55,335 nucleotides of DNA from an uncultured Opitutales bacterium (GCA_944389885.1 CALXNZ010000017.1:1-55335); one strand, 5' to 3'. Positions 6,492 to 12,912 are shown, numbered from the stretch's first letter. Numbers and translations are program-made. Notes: generated from the sequence alone by a model not told the origin.

Positions 6492-7898
6492 GTGAAAGAA
6501 ATCCGCACAGTTAAAGCCAAGAACAGGCCCCAGCTCGAGATGGGAATCTTCCTGCCGTACCAATGGAGGTGGATTCAAGACCGTTCGCGCATAAAGCTTG
6601 TCGAGAAGAGCCGCCAGATCGGCTTTTCCTGGGCTACCGCCTACGACATAGTGCGCCAGCAATCGCGCAAGGCGGTAAAGCTCGATTCTTGGATTTCCTC
6701 CCGCGATGAAATCCAGGCTCGGCTATTTTTGCAGGACTGCAGGAAGTTCGCGGGGCTTTTAAATATTGCCGCCTCCGAAATCGGCGAGCGGGTTTATAAG
6801 ATAGACGAAGCGCGCTCCGTCACGGCCTTTGAAATGTCCTTTGCTAACGGCACTGTTACGCACTCAATGTCATCCAATCCCGATGCGCAGGCGGGCAAGC
6901 GCGGCACGCGCGTCTTGGACGAATTTGCGCTGCACCAGAATCCGCAGGTGCTCTACTCCATCGCATTGCCTGGCATTACATGGGGCGGACAGATGGCAAT
7001 AGTCTCCACCCACCGCGGGGCGCATAATTTCTTCAACAAACTTGTCCAGGAAGCGCGCTACGGCGAAAACAAAAAGCGGGTTTCCTTGCACAGGGTAAGC
7101 CTTCAAGACGCGCTCGACGAGGGTTTCCTTTGGACTCTCCAGCAAAAACTGCCCGAAGGCGACGAGCGCCAGGAAATGGACGAGGCGGCCTATTTTGATT
7201 ACGTCAAAGACCAGTGCGCCGACGAGGAGAGCTTCCTTCAAGAGTATATGTGCGAACCTGCGGACGAATCGAGCGTATTTATCACGTCGGATTTGTACGA
7301 CGGCGTGACATACGGCCTTTCAGAAAACTGGCAGAAGCCGCTCTCCGAGTGCGGAGACCTTTATGTGGGCATAGACGTAGGACACAAACACGACCGCACA
7401 ACCTGCTGGGTTTGGGAAAAGTCGGGCAATATTTATTTTCAACGCAGACTGAAAGTCTTGCAAAATATGAAGTTTTCGGCGCAGGAGGAGGAGATTTATC
7501 CAATTCTTGCGCTGCCAAATATGCGCCGCTGTTGCGTTGATTCCACGGGCATCGGTGCGCAGTTCGCCGAACGCATGCAGGAAAGGTTCGGGAAATACCG
7601 CATCGAAGCGGTAACATTTACAAATACCGCCAAGGCCGATATGGCCTACAAGCTGCGCGCCGCTTTTGAAGACCGCAATATACGCATTGCCGACGACAAA
7701 GACACCCGCGCGGATTTCCGCAGCATAAAAAAAGAGGTGACAAGCTCTGGAGCGGTTCGCTTTGACGCGGAGCGCACAGAGGCCCTCGGCCACGGAGACC
7801 GCTTTTGGGGAGCGGCTCTTGGATATTATGCCGGAGCAAAGCCTGCGGAGTCGTATTTCATTCCAATAGTGCGCCGCAGCCAAAGGAGGCTTTTTTAA
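6492..7898 (+). CDS. Mu gp28-like large terminase
   Basis: A 468-residue protein from a GTG start three bases after the gp27-like stop. It has an ATPase domain with a Walker-A-like KSRQIGFSW at about residue 39, a Walker B RVLDEFA near 140, and an STHRG coupling motif. A nuclease domain has acidic residues in GIDVGHKHD (about 295), VDSTGIG and GHGDRFWGA. It packages DNA into the prohead and cuts it. The motifs and place between gp27 and the portal make the call firm. Confidence 0.9.
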   Translation: MKEIRTVKAKNRPQLEMGIFLPYQWRWIQDRSRIKLVEKSRQIGFSWATAYDIVRQQSRKAVKLDSWISSRDEIQARLFLQDCRKFAGLLNIAASEIGERVYKIDEARSVTAFEMSFANGTVTHSMSSNPDAQAGKRGTRVLDEFALHQNPQVLYSIALPGITWGGQMAIVSTHRGAHNFFNKLVQEARYGENKKRVSLHRVSLQDALDEGFLWTLQQKLPEGDERQEMDEAAYFDYVKDQCADEESFLQEYMCEPADESSVFITSDLYDGVTYGLSENWQKPLSECGDLYVGIDVGHKHDRTTCWVWEKSGNIYFQRRLKVLQNMKFSAQEEEIYPILALPNMRRCCVDSTGIGAQFAERMQERFGKYRIEAVTFTNTAKADMAYKLRAAFEDRNIRIADDKDTRADFRSIKKEVTSSGAVRFDAERTEALGHGDRFWGAALGYYAGAKPAESYFIPIVRRSQRRLF

Positions 7899-9356
7899 AT
7901 GAAATCTGAAATCACCGACGAAAGAATTTTATGGGAGAAGCGTTCGCGCTACAACCCTCTTCTGGGCTTGCGGCCGCAGATGTTGCGCGCGGCAAACGAC
8001 GCCTTCAAAACGGGCTATATGTCGAAGGCGGCGCGCATTTGGGAGGAAGTCGAGGAGTGCGACGGTATTGTCTCCACCGTGCGCGCCAAGCGGCGCAAGA
8101 GCGTATCGCGGCTTTCGTGGAACATAGTGCCTTTTGGTAACGCACCCGAAGATACGGCTAAAGAGCACGCCGCCAGGCTTGAGGATTTTTACAACAATGT
8201 GTCCTGGACACACGCGTGCGACAAGCACCGCACGGGCGGGTTTTCGCGCCTTGTAGAGGCCATGCTAGATTGCGTCGGCAAGAAATACTCCGTGCATGAA
8301 ATCGTCTGGAAGCCTAATCCGCAAGAGCGCACACTACGCGCGAATTTTAAGTTTGTGCCTCTTTACTTCTTTGAGGACACCGCGGGCAAATTGCGCCTCT
8401 TGCGCTCGCCCAACGCCGTCTTTGGCGACGAATTGAAACCCGACAAGTGGCTTATAGCTGCAACAGACTCTCCGCTTATGTCGGCCTGCTCGGTTTATTA
8501 TCTAATGAAACAGATGAGTCTTGCCGACTGGCTCGTATTCTCGCGCCGTTTCGGTTCGGCCTTGGCTTGGCTTAAGACGGAAGAGCCCGCGCACTCCGAC
8601 AAATGGGAGGAAATGGCATCCGCCCTTGCAAACATAGACAACGAAACAAGCCTCATAACCGGCAATGGCGACACTCTTGCGCTCTTGCAGGCTTCAGGGC
8701 AGAACGCGCCTTTCAAGGAAATAATAGACCACCTCACGCGCCTTGTAATCACAATGTGGCTTGGCAGCGACCTTGCGACAATGTCCTCGCAGGACGGCGC
8801 GGGGGCCAGCCTGCAGGGGGAGTCGTCGGCAATGCTAGAGGACGACGACTGCCTTTTAATAGAAGAAACTTTGGCGAACACCGTGTCGCGCTTTATAATA
8901 CGCTACTATTTCGGCAACGTCGAGCCCGCCGCATACCTTCAATTCCAGCGCACCGACCGTTCCGACAAAAAGGCCGCGCTTGAAATTCTCGGGATGACGG
9001 CGGACAGGGGCGTGCCCGTATCCCAAAAGGCGTGGCGCGAGGCAAGCGGAGTCGCCGCGCCCGACGAGGGCGAAGCCGTAATCGAGAAATCGCAGGCGCC
9101 GATGCTTCAGGATTCCGCCTTTGGCGCAAACGACGCCGAAAGCGACATAGACGAGCTTTCCCGCGCCATGAGCACCGAAAAGAAACAAGCCCTCCTTGCC
9201 GAGCTCGACCGCATAGAAGCTATGGACGACGCCTCGCAGCGCGCAGACGCCCTCGCCAATTTGCAAAGAAATATTGGCAACTACTTTGACGGCGGCGACG
9301 CCGAAGCGGAGGCCATGATGAAGATTTTAGAGAGGAGAATTTCAAATGAAAAATAA
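7899..9356 (+). CDS. Mu gp29-like portal protein (DUF935)
   Basis: A 485-residue protein. Segments such as VRAKRRKSVSRLSWNIVPFG, an HEIVWK strand, and FSRRFGSALAWLKTEEPAH match the DUF935 portal family of Mu-like phages. The C-terminal part is acidic and helical. The portal forms the DNA entry ring and binds the terminase. It starts right after the terminase stop, and its end overlaps the protease gene by 11 bases. Confidence 0.85.
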   Translation: MKSEITDERILWEKRSRYNPLLGLRPQMLRAANDAFKTGYMSKAARIWEEVEECDGIVSTVRAKRRKSVSRLSWNIVPFGNAPEDTAKEHAARLEDFYNNVSWTHACDKHRTGGFSRLVEAMLDCVGKKYSVHEIVWKPNPQERTLRANFKFVPLYFFEDTAGKLRLLRSPNAVFGDELKPDKWLIAATDSPLMSACSVYYLMKQMSLADWLVFSRRFGSALAWLKTEEPAHSDKWEEMASALANIDNETSLITGNGDTLALLQASGQNAPFKEIIDHLTRLVITMWLGSDLATMSSQDGAGASLQGESSAMLEDDDCLLIEETLANTVSRFIIRYYFGNVEPAAYLQFQRTDRSDKKAALEILGMTADRGVPVSQKAWREASGVAAPDEGEAVIEKSQAPMLQDSAFGANDAESDIDELSRAMSTEKKQALLAELDRIEAMDDASQRADALANLQRNIGNYFDGGDAEAEAMMKILERRISNEK

Positions 9357-10608
9357 ACCAAGCCGAATTTTGGCGTTTTTAGCCCTTAAAATCCGCGGCG
9401 CGGGCAATCGCCCCAAAAATGCAAGAAAACGATTTTGCAACGGCATTCTGGCGTTTTGCAACGGCAATGCTGAGCGCGATCAAAACGATGGGATAGCCAA
9501 TACGAACTTTGGCGTATGGGCGGCGAACGAATCCGAGGAGTGCGAATATGCAATCCAGGACACGGAGTTGATTTGCGCTGCAAATGACGGCGGGGCTTGG
9601 TATCTCGTGGCCCCTTACGGAAACTTTAACCATCGCGTGGGAGTCCAACGCTTCGACGAGCAATCCGCCGACGAGATAATCGACAAGTACAAATCCATTT
9701 GGGCACGCCTGAAACGCGCTGCCGGTTTCGGGACGACAATTCCCGTCCATCTCGGGCATCCAGACGTGGGCGACGATGGCAGGCCAGGCATTTCATCGAA
9801 ACATCTCGATAAGTCCGTGTACGGCAAAGTGGCGGACCTTGCAAAATCTCCGGAAGGCCTGGTGGCAAAGATAGATTGGCAACCGGACTTTGGGCTTTTG
9901 CCGCACGGTTTGCGCTTTTCGCCATTTTGGCTGATGAGACCCCTTTCAAAGGGCGTATATCGCCCGACGTTTCTCGCATCACTTGGTCTAACTCAAACTC
10001 CTAATATTCCGGCAACCGCCGCAGCAAATTCAATCGAGGAAATTTTAACTGAAAATCAAACAAAGGAAAACGAAATGATAAAAGAGTTGCTAAAACTTTT
10101 GGGCTATTCCGACGAAGCTACCCAGAAGTATATTGACAAGTCGGATGGTGCACCTTCCGAAGACGAAATCAAGTCCAAGTTAAAGGCTGTTTTGGACGGG
10201 GCTAAAAATGCCGAAGCCGCGGAAGCTGCACAGGCGGAAGCTGAAAAAAAGCTCGCAGAAGCTAAGGCCGCCGCGGCAAACGACAGGGCCGCAGCTGCTG
10301 AAATTGTGGTAAACGCCGCTATAAAGGCCGGCAAACTCACGGAGGCCGACCGCGCAGCGCGCACGGACAGCTTGAAGAAAGCGACGGATTTTGTCGCCGC
10401 CGCAAATGAAATCGAAGCTCTGCCGGTTGTTGTGGAAACCAAGCCGGAGACGGACGGGCTCAAGCAGGGAGACGCCAAGGCAAGCGCCAAAGCGGCTTTC
10501 AACGGGCTCGTCGCCAAATACGAGGCGGAAGGCATTGACCATTTTGACGCTACCATGCGCGCCAAGCGAGAAATGCCCGAACAGTACAAATTGGCTTTTG
10601 AATCTTAA
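9346..10608 (+). CDS. Mu gpI-like prohead protease with scaffold domain
   Basis: A 420-residue protein. The central part (about 90-225), with HLGHPDVGDDGRPG and FSPFWLMRPL, matches the Mu I protein, the prohead maturation protease. The C-terminal 180 residues are an Ala/Glu/Lys-rich helical scaffold ending with the family-like RAKREMPEQYKLAF tail. Five AAN-type motifs (residues 59-61, 79-80, 227-228, 310-312 and 352-354) recur, two with the same flanks as the N-termini of the decoration and capsid proteins, so they are candidate self-cleavage sites. The N-terminal 55 residues are basic and unusual. Confidence 0.8.
   Translation: MKNKPSRILAFLALKIRGAGNRPKNARKRFCNGILAFCNGNAERDQNDGIANTNFGVWAANESEECEYAIQDTELICAANDGGAWYLVAPYGNFNHRVGVQRFDEQSADEIIDKYKSIWARLKRAAGFGTTIPVHLGHPDVGDDGRPGISSKHLDKSVYGKVADLAKSPEGLVAKIDWQPDFGLLPHGLRFSPFWLMRPLSKGVYRPTFLASLGLTQTPNIPATAAANSIEEILTENQTKENEMIKELLKLLGYSDEATQKYIDKSDGAPSEDEIKSKLKAVLDGAKNAEAAEAAQAEAEKKLAEAKAAAANDRAAAAEIVVNAAIKAGKLTEADRAARTDSLKKATDFVAAANEIEALPVVVETKPETDGLKQGDAKASAKAAFNGLVAKYEAEGIDHFDATMRAKREMPEQYKLAFES
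10075..10608 (+). CDS. Internal in-frame start for a separate scaffold protein
   Basis: Within the protease gene, ATG 10075 (MIKELLKLLGYSDEA) is preceded by AAAGGAAAACGAA, a good ribosome site with suitable spacing. The product would be 177 residues, the helical scaffold domain alone. Mu makes gpZ from gpI in the same way. The site lies exactly at the boundary between protease and scaffold domains. Confidence 0.65.
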   Translation: MIKELLKLLGYSDEATQKYIDKSDGAPSEDEIKSKLKAVLDGAKNAEAAEAAQAEAEKKLAEAKAAAANDRAAAAEIVVNAAIKAGKLTEADRAARTDSLKKATDFVAAANEIEALPVVVETKPETDGLKQGDAKASAKAAFNGLVAKYEAEGIDHFDATMRAKREMPEQYKLAFES

Positions 10609-10631
10609 ACTCAACCAAAGGAACAATCGCA

Positions 10632-11069
10632 ATGAAAAAGATAATTGAAAGAATGCGCCGCCTATTCGCCCATGGAGTCTGGGCGGCAAACGACACGCTC
10701 GTTGGGATTCATCCCGAAGGCGCAATTAACTGCGTGGCGGGCGGAGCAATAGTCCGCAACAGCCTTGTGGCGTTCTCGTCCGGCAAAGTCGTCGCCTGCG
10801 CGGCAAGCAGCCGCCCGCTTGGCTTTGCGCAGGACAGCGCAAGCGAAGGTGAAGGGCTTGCGGTGAGGCTGCTTGGCAACGCCGCGGGAACTACCGTTGG
10901 AATCGCCGCAGAAGCAGTCGCCCAGGGAGACGCGCTTTACGAGGCCGCAAACGGAAAAGTAGGTAAAACCGAGGGCGGGTACTTCATTGGCTACGCCCTG
11001 ACCGCCGCGTCTGCCGATGGCGAGGTGGAAATCCAGCACTGTGTGCCACAAGAGGTTTCGGCTTCCTAA
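10632..11069 (+). CDS. Head decoration protein (DUF2190-like)
   Basis: A 145-residue protein. After about 20 basic residues ending in GVWAANDT, the rest is Ala/Gly/Val-rich and strand-rich with a repeated turn pattern (EAVAQGDALYEAANGKVGKT), as in DUF2190/decoration proteins. It lies between scaffold and major capsid, the usual place. The N-terminal basic segment may be removed, because GVWAAN also occurs in the protease. Function by family and position. Confidence 0.7.
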   Translation: MKKIIERMRRLFAHGVWAANDTLVGIHPEGAINCVAGGAIVRNSLVAFSSGKVVACAASSRPLGFAQDSASEGEGLAVRLLGNAAGTTVGIAAEAVAQGDALYEAANGKVGKTEGGYFIGYALTAASADGEVEIQHCVPQEVSAS

Positions 11070-11091
11070 CAAAACTTAAAAAATCAAAATC

Positions 11092-12036
11092 ATGGAAAAG
11101 ATACACGAACTGACCAATTCCAACCTGAACAGCGGTCTTATCTGCGCGGCCAACGACCGCGTTGCGGACTCGCAGTTTAGCGAGGCACTCACCAACTTCG
11201 CAAGCGGCGTCAGAAGCGAAAAGTATGAGGCTCTGCTCAACTTCATCGCTCCCGCTGTGCGCGCAAACCGACGCTTTGAATTCCGCAAGTCCGGCAAGGG
11301 GGAATTTCTCGCCGACAGCGAGGATATCCGCAATGTGGGCGGCGACTTCAAGCGTCTAGAAGTAAAGGGCGAGATCGTTCAAGAAAAGACGCTAAACAAG
11401 GGGCTCACGATACGAATCGACAACGACGAACGCTATGAAGGCATCGAGGAGGAAAAGACCCAGAGCCTCGTACGCCGCTTAATACGCAACGAATGCGTGC
11501 GGGCGGTGGCAATGCTGCTTTCCGTAGCGGGATCTGCAACCTCCAAATCGTGGGCTACGGGCTCCACAAAGACACAGCCCGACGCCGACTTGCGCGCCCT
11601 TATCGACGCCGTTGGCGACTCGGTAATGCTTGACGCAAACCGCCTGCTCATTGGCTCAAAGGCATGGAGCACCCGCCTGGAAGTTTACGAGAGCTCTACG
11701 GCTCCATATGCGGGAGTAGCCGCAAATTTTGGCGCCCAGCAGCTCGCCGACAAACTTGGCCTTGATGGCGTATTCAAGAGCACTGAAAGGGTCGAAACCA
11801 CCTCTGGAAAGGCAAAGGTTGTAAATAGCGCATATGCAGTTGCGTTTGTGGGCGTTGACGGGGCTACGGATCTGGATCCTTCAACCCTAAAGCGCTTCTG
11901 GAGTCCGTGCGACGGCGGTGAAATGTTCCGCATCTACCGCGACGAAAAGGCGAAGTGGGTGGACATTACTGTCGAGCACTACTCAAACATCGTAAACACG
12001 GTAGCGGGCGGCGCGAAAGCCATATCCGTATCGTAA
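11092..12036 (+). CDS. Major capsid protein (Mu gpT-like)
   Basis: A 314-residue protein. Helices in the first 60 residues, then the FEFRKSGKGEFLADSEDIRN segment and a helix RRLIRNECVRAVAMLLS, fit an HK97-fold capsid of the Mu gpT type. So does the C-terminal strand-rich domain (DITVEHYSNIVNTVAGG). Like its neighbours it carries LICAAND near the N-terminus (residues 16-22). A strong hairpin follows the stop at 12,042. Confidence 0.8.
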   Translation: MEKIHELTNSNLNSGLICAANDRVADSQFSEALTNFASGVRSEKYEALLNFIAPAVRANRRFEFRKSGKGEFLADSEDIRNVGGDFKRLEVKGEIVQEKTLNKGLTIRIDNDERYEGIEEEKTQSLVRRLIRNECVRAVAMLLSVAGSATSKSWATGSTKTQPDADLRALIDAVGDSVMLDANRLLIGSKAWSTRLEVYESSTAPYAGVAANFGAQQLADKLGLDGVFKSTERVETTSGKAKVVNSAYAVAFVGVDGATDLDPSTLKRFWSPCDGGEMFRIYRDEKAKWVDITVEHYSNIVNTVAGGAKAISVS

Positions 12037-12090: not shown

Positions 12091-12912
12091 ATGAATCCAG
12101 TTTTTGCATATCCCGGGGGCAAGCGGCGAATGTTAAAGTACATTCTGCCGGTCATACCCGCGCACGACACCTACATAGAGCCCTTTGCAGGCGGGCTTGC
12201 CGTATTTTTGGCAAAAGAGCGCGTTAAGGTTGAGGTGATAAACGACCTCAACGACGAAGTGTCCGGCTTTTATTTATACGTGCGAGAGCACTTGGACGCA
12301 CTTCTAAGCGAGATGGAGTGGTACTTGCACTCCGTGGAAATTTTTAACCGCCTCCAAGAAAACAAAGGACTTACTGAACTTCAAAAAGTGGCGCGCTGGT
12401 ATCTTTTAAAAGTGTCGTCATTTAGCGGGTTTGGCGACTACTATGCGCGCGATCCGCGCGGATACCGCGGCTTCGACAAGACAAAACATGTGCCCGCAAT
12501 CAAGGAGCTGCATGAGAGGCTCCACGGCGTTTACATCGAAAAGCGCGACTGGCAGCAAGTCGTAAAATTTTACGATAGAGAGTCTGCTTTCATTTACTTT
12601 GATCCTCCCTATTGCACGGGCGACAGCGGCGTCTATGACGCTTGGGAGCCCGCTGACATGGAAATGCTGCGAAACAGTCTCTACACGATAAAAGGAAAAT
12701 GGCTACTTTCCTGCGATGGCAGCGACATTTGCAGGGAAATATTTTCGGATTTTGCGAAAGTTGAAGTGCCTTTTAAATACTCGGCGGGAACGGGCGACAG
12801 AATACGCCCTGAACGTTCCGAAATGATCGTCGCCTGCGACGAGCTTGCAGACGCCCTGCAAAGCAATTTTAACGCCGTTTCAAACAGCGGAAAATTTAAG
12901 GAGGCCGCGTAA
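12091..12912 (+). CDS. Dam-type (D12 class) DNA adenine N6-methyltransferase
   Basis: A 273-residue protein. The N-terminal FAYPGGKRRM and YIEPFAGG are the AdoMet-binding motifs, and FDPPY at about residue 171 is the catalytic motif of D12-class adenine methyltransferases. Length is normal for Dam. There is no matching endonuclease next to it, so it is an orphan enzyme. It could protect phage DNA or affect control by methylation. Its place inside the head gene run is uncommon. It overlaps the next start (TAATG). Confidence 0.9.
   Translation: MNPVFAYPGGKRRMLKYILPVIPAHDTYIEPFAGGLAVFLAKERVKVEVINDLNDEVSGFYLYVREHLDALLSEMEWYLHSVEIFNRLQENKGLTELQKVARWYLLKVSSFSGFGDYYARDPRGYRGFDKTKHVPAIKELHERLHGVYIEKRDWQQVVKFYDRESAFIYFDPPYCTGDSGVYDAWEPADMEMLRNSLYTIKGKWLLSCDGSDICREIFSDFAKVEVPFKYSAGTGDRIRPERSEMIVACDELADALQSNFNAVSNSGKFKEAA

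Follow-up and report, generated by a model that had tools for sequence, protein, structure and literature searches.

A short motif ending in asparagine and typified by AAN recurs in the protease-scaffold, cement and major capsid proteins encoded by the Mu-like prophage described here, and its copies probably (at roughly 0.82) serve as sites recognised by the head maturation protease that positions 9346-10608 encode. The copies are found where several protein parts have flexible borders, and they are kept across divergent Mu-like elements, both of Verrucomicrobiota and on environmental viral contigs. They are best explained by a recognition consensus [I/V]-x-[A/L/F]-[A/S/C]-N, deduced from the protein sequences, with Ile or Val at position -4, a small or hydrophobic residue at -2, Ala, Ser or Cys at -1 and Asn at position 0. 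The first-pass annotation had put AAN forward as a common recognition sequence of the prohead protease, and this proposal is now supported by conservation in homologues, by the location of the motifs at predicted borders between disordered and folded parts and by the predicted maturation-protease fold.

Head-gene locus, protease fold and motif copies

The window, i.e. the whole 55,335-nucleotide stretch that was analysed, is contig 17 of a 2.2 Mb genome with kinship to Puniceicoccaceae bacterium Marseille-Q1082; a single-sequence scan of genome contigs led to one near-identical locus, hosted by the latter bacterium. The element itself is a Mu-like prophage, carried by a Puniceicoccaceae-type gut bacterium. 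Its genes at 6492-12036 are arranged in the order terminase, Mu-type portal, 420-aa protease-scaffold fusion, cement protein and HK97-fold capsid protein, and the protease-scaffold, cement and capsid features mapped below are all on the plus strand. The Mu-type head maturation protease fused to a scaffold (9346..10608) was assigned by PF10123 (E 2e-6; 27.9 bits against a cut-off of 25.2), phrog_328 (E 1.2e-11) and an AF2 model, and its gene is placed between those of the portal and the capsid, an arrangement expected of the Mu type. The 145-aa cement (decoration) protein (10632..11069) matches PF09956 (E 4.5e-9) and phrog_673, while the 314-aa major capsid protein (11092..12036) matches phrog_1005. 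The AF2 model of the latter (pLDDT 87) has its best PDB matches in 3bjq (TM 0.67), HK97-type phage capsids and encapsulins, placing it within the HK97 fold; the confidence is low at the start (54 for residues 1-10 and 74 for residues 11-20), and a firm fold sets in at about residue 30. A search with the capsid query against named phages gave zero matches at the sensitivity used. Directly 3' of the capsid gene, at 12091-12912, lies a DNA adenine methylase-like gene, the start of which is near-identical to that of a gene in another prophage of the same genome (L006, 10817-11638), suggesting recent exchange between prophages of one genome.

According to the AF2 model, residues 1-80 of the protease (9346..9585) form a disordered propeptide with a mean pLDDT of ~40-57, folding begins at about residue 84, and the protease domain (residues 84-216, 9595..9993) is followed by a weaker linker leading to a scaffold helix at residues 230-251. 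H138 (9757-9759), S192 (9919-9921) and S212 are invariant in 54 sequences, the first two being the likely catalytic residues. Structural comparison of the model by VIA-align retrieved the varicella-zoster virus protease (VZV, 1vzv) with a Z of 9.4 (106 residues aligned, 2.9 A), T4 gp21 (5jbl) with a Z of 8.8 and also the PRV and HCMV proteases, herpesvirus enzymes occupying almost every one of the first 31 ranks. For the same model, Foldseek E-values are weak on their own, and a PDB sequence search with the protease profile returned chance matches only. As modelled, the protease shares the fold of the herpesvirus assemblin and T4 gp21 maturation proteases. Nearly all herpesvirus matches extend from residues 80-85 to 228, that is, between two of the candidate cuts, N80 and N228.

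The two cross-protein identities noticed at the outset are present exactly as described. GVWAAN begins at residue 56 of the protease (9511..9528, N61), where it represents the first candidate propeptide site, and at residue 15 of the cement protein (10674..10691, N20). LICAAND begins at residue 75 of the protease (9568..9588, N80), as the second candidate propeptide site at the border to the folded domain, and at residue 16 of the capsid protein (11137..11157, N21). The DNA does differ between the copies of these stretches, and all differences are at synonymous positions. Three further copies had been listed for the junction and scaffold near residues 227, 310 and 352; all three exist, although they start at residues 225, 309 and 351. 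They comprise a candidate protease/scaffold release site AAANS (N228, 10018..10032) in the lower-pLDDT linker before the first scaffold helix, a candidate internal scaffold site AAAND (N312, 10270..10284) and a candidate late scaffold site AAANE (N354, 10396..10410) before the conserved C-terminal domain. In 20,000 shuffles, a 6-mer common to protease and cement protein arose 222 times, a 7-mer common to protease and capsid 17 times, and both together 0 times. AAN occurs twice in the propeptide (0.21 expected), three times in the junction and scaffold (0.44), twice in the capsid (0.19) and twice in the cement protein (0.17), with a count of 0 in the protease domain. The within-protein test of motif multiplicity was not significant for the window protease (p=0.56), because this protein is Ala-rich; the scaffold copies of the window alone are weak evidence for the same reason, and the case therefore rests on the relatives.

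Two FCN copies in the propeptide (N32 and N39, 9436..9462), which had not been listed before, resemble the cement site AFCN-IAEG of relatives, and an FCN...FCN arrangement is also found in L004, L006, L062 and L078. The portal carries AAND at residue 31 and GAND at residue 410, the former being absent from both portal relatives compared.

Conservation and enrichment in relatives

Of 133 related genomes searched with the capsid, 66 gave matches. Some 57 loci were read, with 44 further loci on IMG/VR viral contigs serving as a held-out set. Asn was counted by site in 44 representative loci with capsids less than 65% identical; these counts are alignment-based, and one must bear in mind that aligners can pull Asn into one column. 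At the capsid site, Asn is present in 41/43 sequences, preceded by Ala in 40/43 and by Ile or Val at -4 in 36/43, and the leaders, which range from ~5 to 45 residues and vary in composition, yet end in [IV]xxAN-E-x-RF. Asn is found at the cement site in 31/34 sequences, the preceding residue being Ala in 21, Ser in 5 and Cys in 2; leaders of variable length and sequence end here in [FLA][ASC]N-x-A-x-GTH. Among aligned long proteases, the first propeptide site retains Asn in 24/26, the second in 25/29 and the release site in all 30, where relatives show IANE, IANQ, LANE, VANA or AANS after the protease domain (GLTNxPNIPG). Proteases with a propeptide carry the motif once or, commonly, twice, the second copy immediately preceding the initial strand of the protease domain. 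The scaffold copies are only partly conserved: N312 is retained in 16/30 aligned sequences, with LANERxARI recurring in relatives, and the late site corresponds to a recurrent [LA][ASC]N..P..T, a column which does not align cleanly and the conservation of which was judged by eye from the relatives' sequences. Capsids of L067, L070, L079, L083, L057 and L097 are devoid of the Asn, and the short proteases of one lineage have no junction motif, although the corresponding capsid and cement proteins keep theirs. The expectation that homologues would keep the AAN motifs was thus borne out at five distinct sites, located in protein parts that are not homologous to one another, as well as by the held-out viral contigs.

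The residue before Asn is mostly Ala, Ser or Cys, whereas the one after it varies between site classes (E, D, S, A, I or V), and Asn is therefore the fixed element. A T4-type A-X-E reading of "ANE" was rejected on the same grounds. The likeness of AAND to the tmRNA tag was set aside as coincidence; no tmRNA gene was found in the window.

Enrichment of AN[EDSQ] reaches 9.8-fold at the junction, against 8.3-fold for capsid leaders and 3.3-fold for scaffolds, whereas capsid bodies contain a quarter of the expected number (5 against 20.4). In the held-out set, AN was found in 13 of 14 protease propeptides (5.1 expected), where it is the top dipeptide, in 22 of 24 capsid leaders (9.3 expected), in 8 of 13 junctions (2.9 expected) and in 8 of 12 cement leaders (2.7 expected), ranking among the top three dipeptides in both of the latter; the capsid body had no excess (18/26 against 19.7 expected). 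Common descent within a site class is not taken into account by these shuffle tests; the weight of the enrichment evidence lies in the agreement between unrelated proteins.

Two peculiarities were observed along the way. L006, L062 and L069 represent a third element type, in which the cement leader is absent and the capsid motif, LANS or FANS, has a LANS counterpart in the scaffold; this suggests that capsid and scaffold change jointly at the residues following Asn. The cement leaders of L048, L059, L065, L071, L072 and L073 are hydrophobic and membrane-anchor-like, often with basic residues following before the Asn motif, possibly reflecting membrane-bound assembly with release by cleavage.

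Proposed processing and alternative explanations

In the proposed scheme, the protease would assemble in the prohead as a precursor, remove its own disordered propeptide in cis at sites near N61 and N80 and free itself, likewise in cis, from the scaffold at N228. Cuts at N312 and N354 would allow the scaffold to leave, and the N-termini of the capsid and cement proteins would be trimmed in trans by about 20 residues. A cut on the C-terminal side of Asn, comparable to the post-Glu cleavage of T4 and phiKZ, is slightly favoured over one on its N-terminal side, comparable to the A|S cleavage of herpesviruses. One point against the scheme is that, if the cement protein is added to the outer face of the shell, a protease inside would have to reach it before or during assembly.

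The most serious alternative, though an unlikely one, is that the motif is itself uncut and acts as a docking or capsid-targeting peptide gathering protease, scaffold, capsid and cement proteins in the prohead. A sequence common to several co-assembling proteins would fit such a role, and T4 has short N-terminal capsid targeting sequences; these, however, are cleaved (PMC5694885), so that the T4 precedent couples targeting to cleavage. Moreover, docking does not call for sites at the protease/scaffold junction, at the border between disorder and fold, or twice in the propeptide. Considerably less credible is ordinary structural conservation of the capsid N-arm and the cement N-terminus, with the likeness across proteins arising from Ala-rich composition. 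Such an explanation is in line with an AAN multiplicity within the window protease that is not beyond chance and with the conservation of E-x-R-F after the Asn of the capsid, but it does not account for the recurrence of this Asn across unrelated proteins and the junction, the shared 6- and 7-mers, the held-out enrichment or the depletion in the folded capsid body. Finally, it is very improbable that a host enzyme such as signal peptidase, or Asn self-cyclisation of the kind that exists in nodavirus-like Asn self-cleavage, makes the cuts in place of the phage protease: the hydrophobic cement leaders of L048, L059, L071 and L072 and the small residues at -1 would suit signal peptidase, but positive charges follow those leaders, the leaders of capsid and protease, being acidic or polar, do not resemble signal peptides, and the motif occurs in the propeptide and junction of the phage protease itself, where Mu-type phages use other residues.

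Comparison with known systems and an extra head-gene cluster

The proposed recognition by the head maturation protease has partial parallels in phage Mu. Mu gpI also is a protease-scaffold fusion (PF10123) encoded before the capsid gene, with Z starting inside gene I, and likewise repeats a short motif, both ahead of the protease domain and within the scaffold. In gpI (L137, 2557-3639), [VIT]A[ASV]L[SN]A occurs in six copies against 0.06 expected, one just before the protease domain and five in the scaffold, a pattern which was found after the fact. Unlike the AAN motif, it is absent from the capsid protein gpT, and Mu has no cement gene between I and T. The Mu record notes that the start of gpT was confirmed by amino acid sequencing, and the gpT N-terminus is therefore probably not trimmed. 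Similar repeats made of other residues were found in Pasteurella Pmp9, Vibrio ZX4290, Shewanella MuM16-1, HS6 and Mannheimia phages; JBD25 and JBD26 did not pass the repeat test, nor did any of 44 capsid controls. An analogous motif recurs at equivalent positions in Mu and its relatives, suggesting lineage-specific specificities. It seems somewhat likely that in Mu-type head-protease precursors generally, the propeptide, junction and scaffold repeat a cleavage code which is specific to the lineage and coevolves with the enzyme (AALSA in Mu, AALTA, VALSD, [phi]xxAN), and that the capsid and cement proteins of Verrucomicrobiota elements adopted this code too. The searched papers, which covered few subscription journals, describe neither the six-copy gpI motif nor a cleavage code for Mu-type head proteases.

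In JBD30, which has a Mu-like head and a cement-like minor capsid protein, the protease is said to cleave the scaffold, and the capsid protein is described from residue 2 onward (PMC11445458). In contrast to the processing proposed here, there is no sign of N-terminal capsid trimming in that phage, and the trimming of capsid and cement proteins may therefore be special to the Verrucomicrobiota lineage. A Z-like scaffold with an internal start, as in Mu, is plausible here as well: a candidate ATG preceded by aaagga would encode it at 10075..10608, and relatives repeatedly have a Met ahead of the first scaffold helix, with an SD-like 4-mer upstream in 13/33 cases compared with 48/285 internal ATGs.

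In T4, phiKZ and SPN3US, one motif marks the leaders of many head proteins and the cut follows Glu, within A-X-E in SPN3US (PMC5694885). The predicted fold (T4 gp21) and the use of one short motif at N-terminal leaders of the capsid and other head proteins are common to these phages and the present element; Glu at P1 is not, the fixed residue here being Asn. Herpesvirus UL26 has a release site separating the protease from the scaffold, a late site ahead of its capsid-binding end and a shorter overlapping scaffold (PMC12474303). With these R and M sites, its assemblin resembles the present protein in predicted fold, in the fusion of protease and scaffold and in the candidate junction and late scaffold sites. 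Herpesvirus cleavage sites are of the A|S type, whereas Asn is the kept residue here, and a propeptide before the protease and cuts in the capsid and cement proteins are proposed for this element. If the scheme is true, it provides a predicted cleavage code for Mu-type head proteases, that of phage Mu included, makes mature N-termini predictable in uncultured Verrucomicrobiota elements, offers a natural series for the joint change in specificity of a viral protease and its many substrates, and links the protease-scaffold architectures of phages and herpesviruses.

Most genomes of the genus also contain, once each, an extra head-gene cluster (portal, short protease, cement, capsid and connectors) with no adjacent terminase: L005 (G000:C2:178000-195000), L037, L039, L044, L045, L047, L050, L053, L057, L085 and L090. 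In at least eight genomes it lies beside the same UDP-sugar pyrophosphorylase-like gene, and single copies are found in several 0.8-1.1 Mb genomes of the order as well. A lone terminase gene is located on another contig (L145, G000:C9, 2947-4299) and has counterparts, 60-71% identical, in nearly all members of the genus. The cluster looks like a vertically inherited, gene-transfer-agent-like element.
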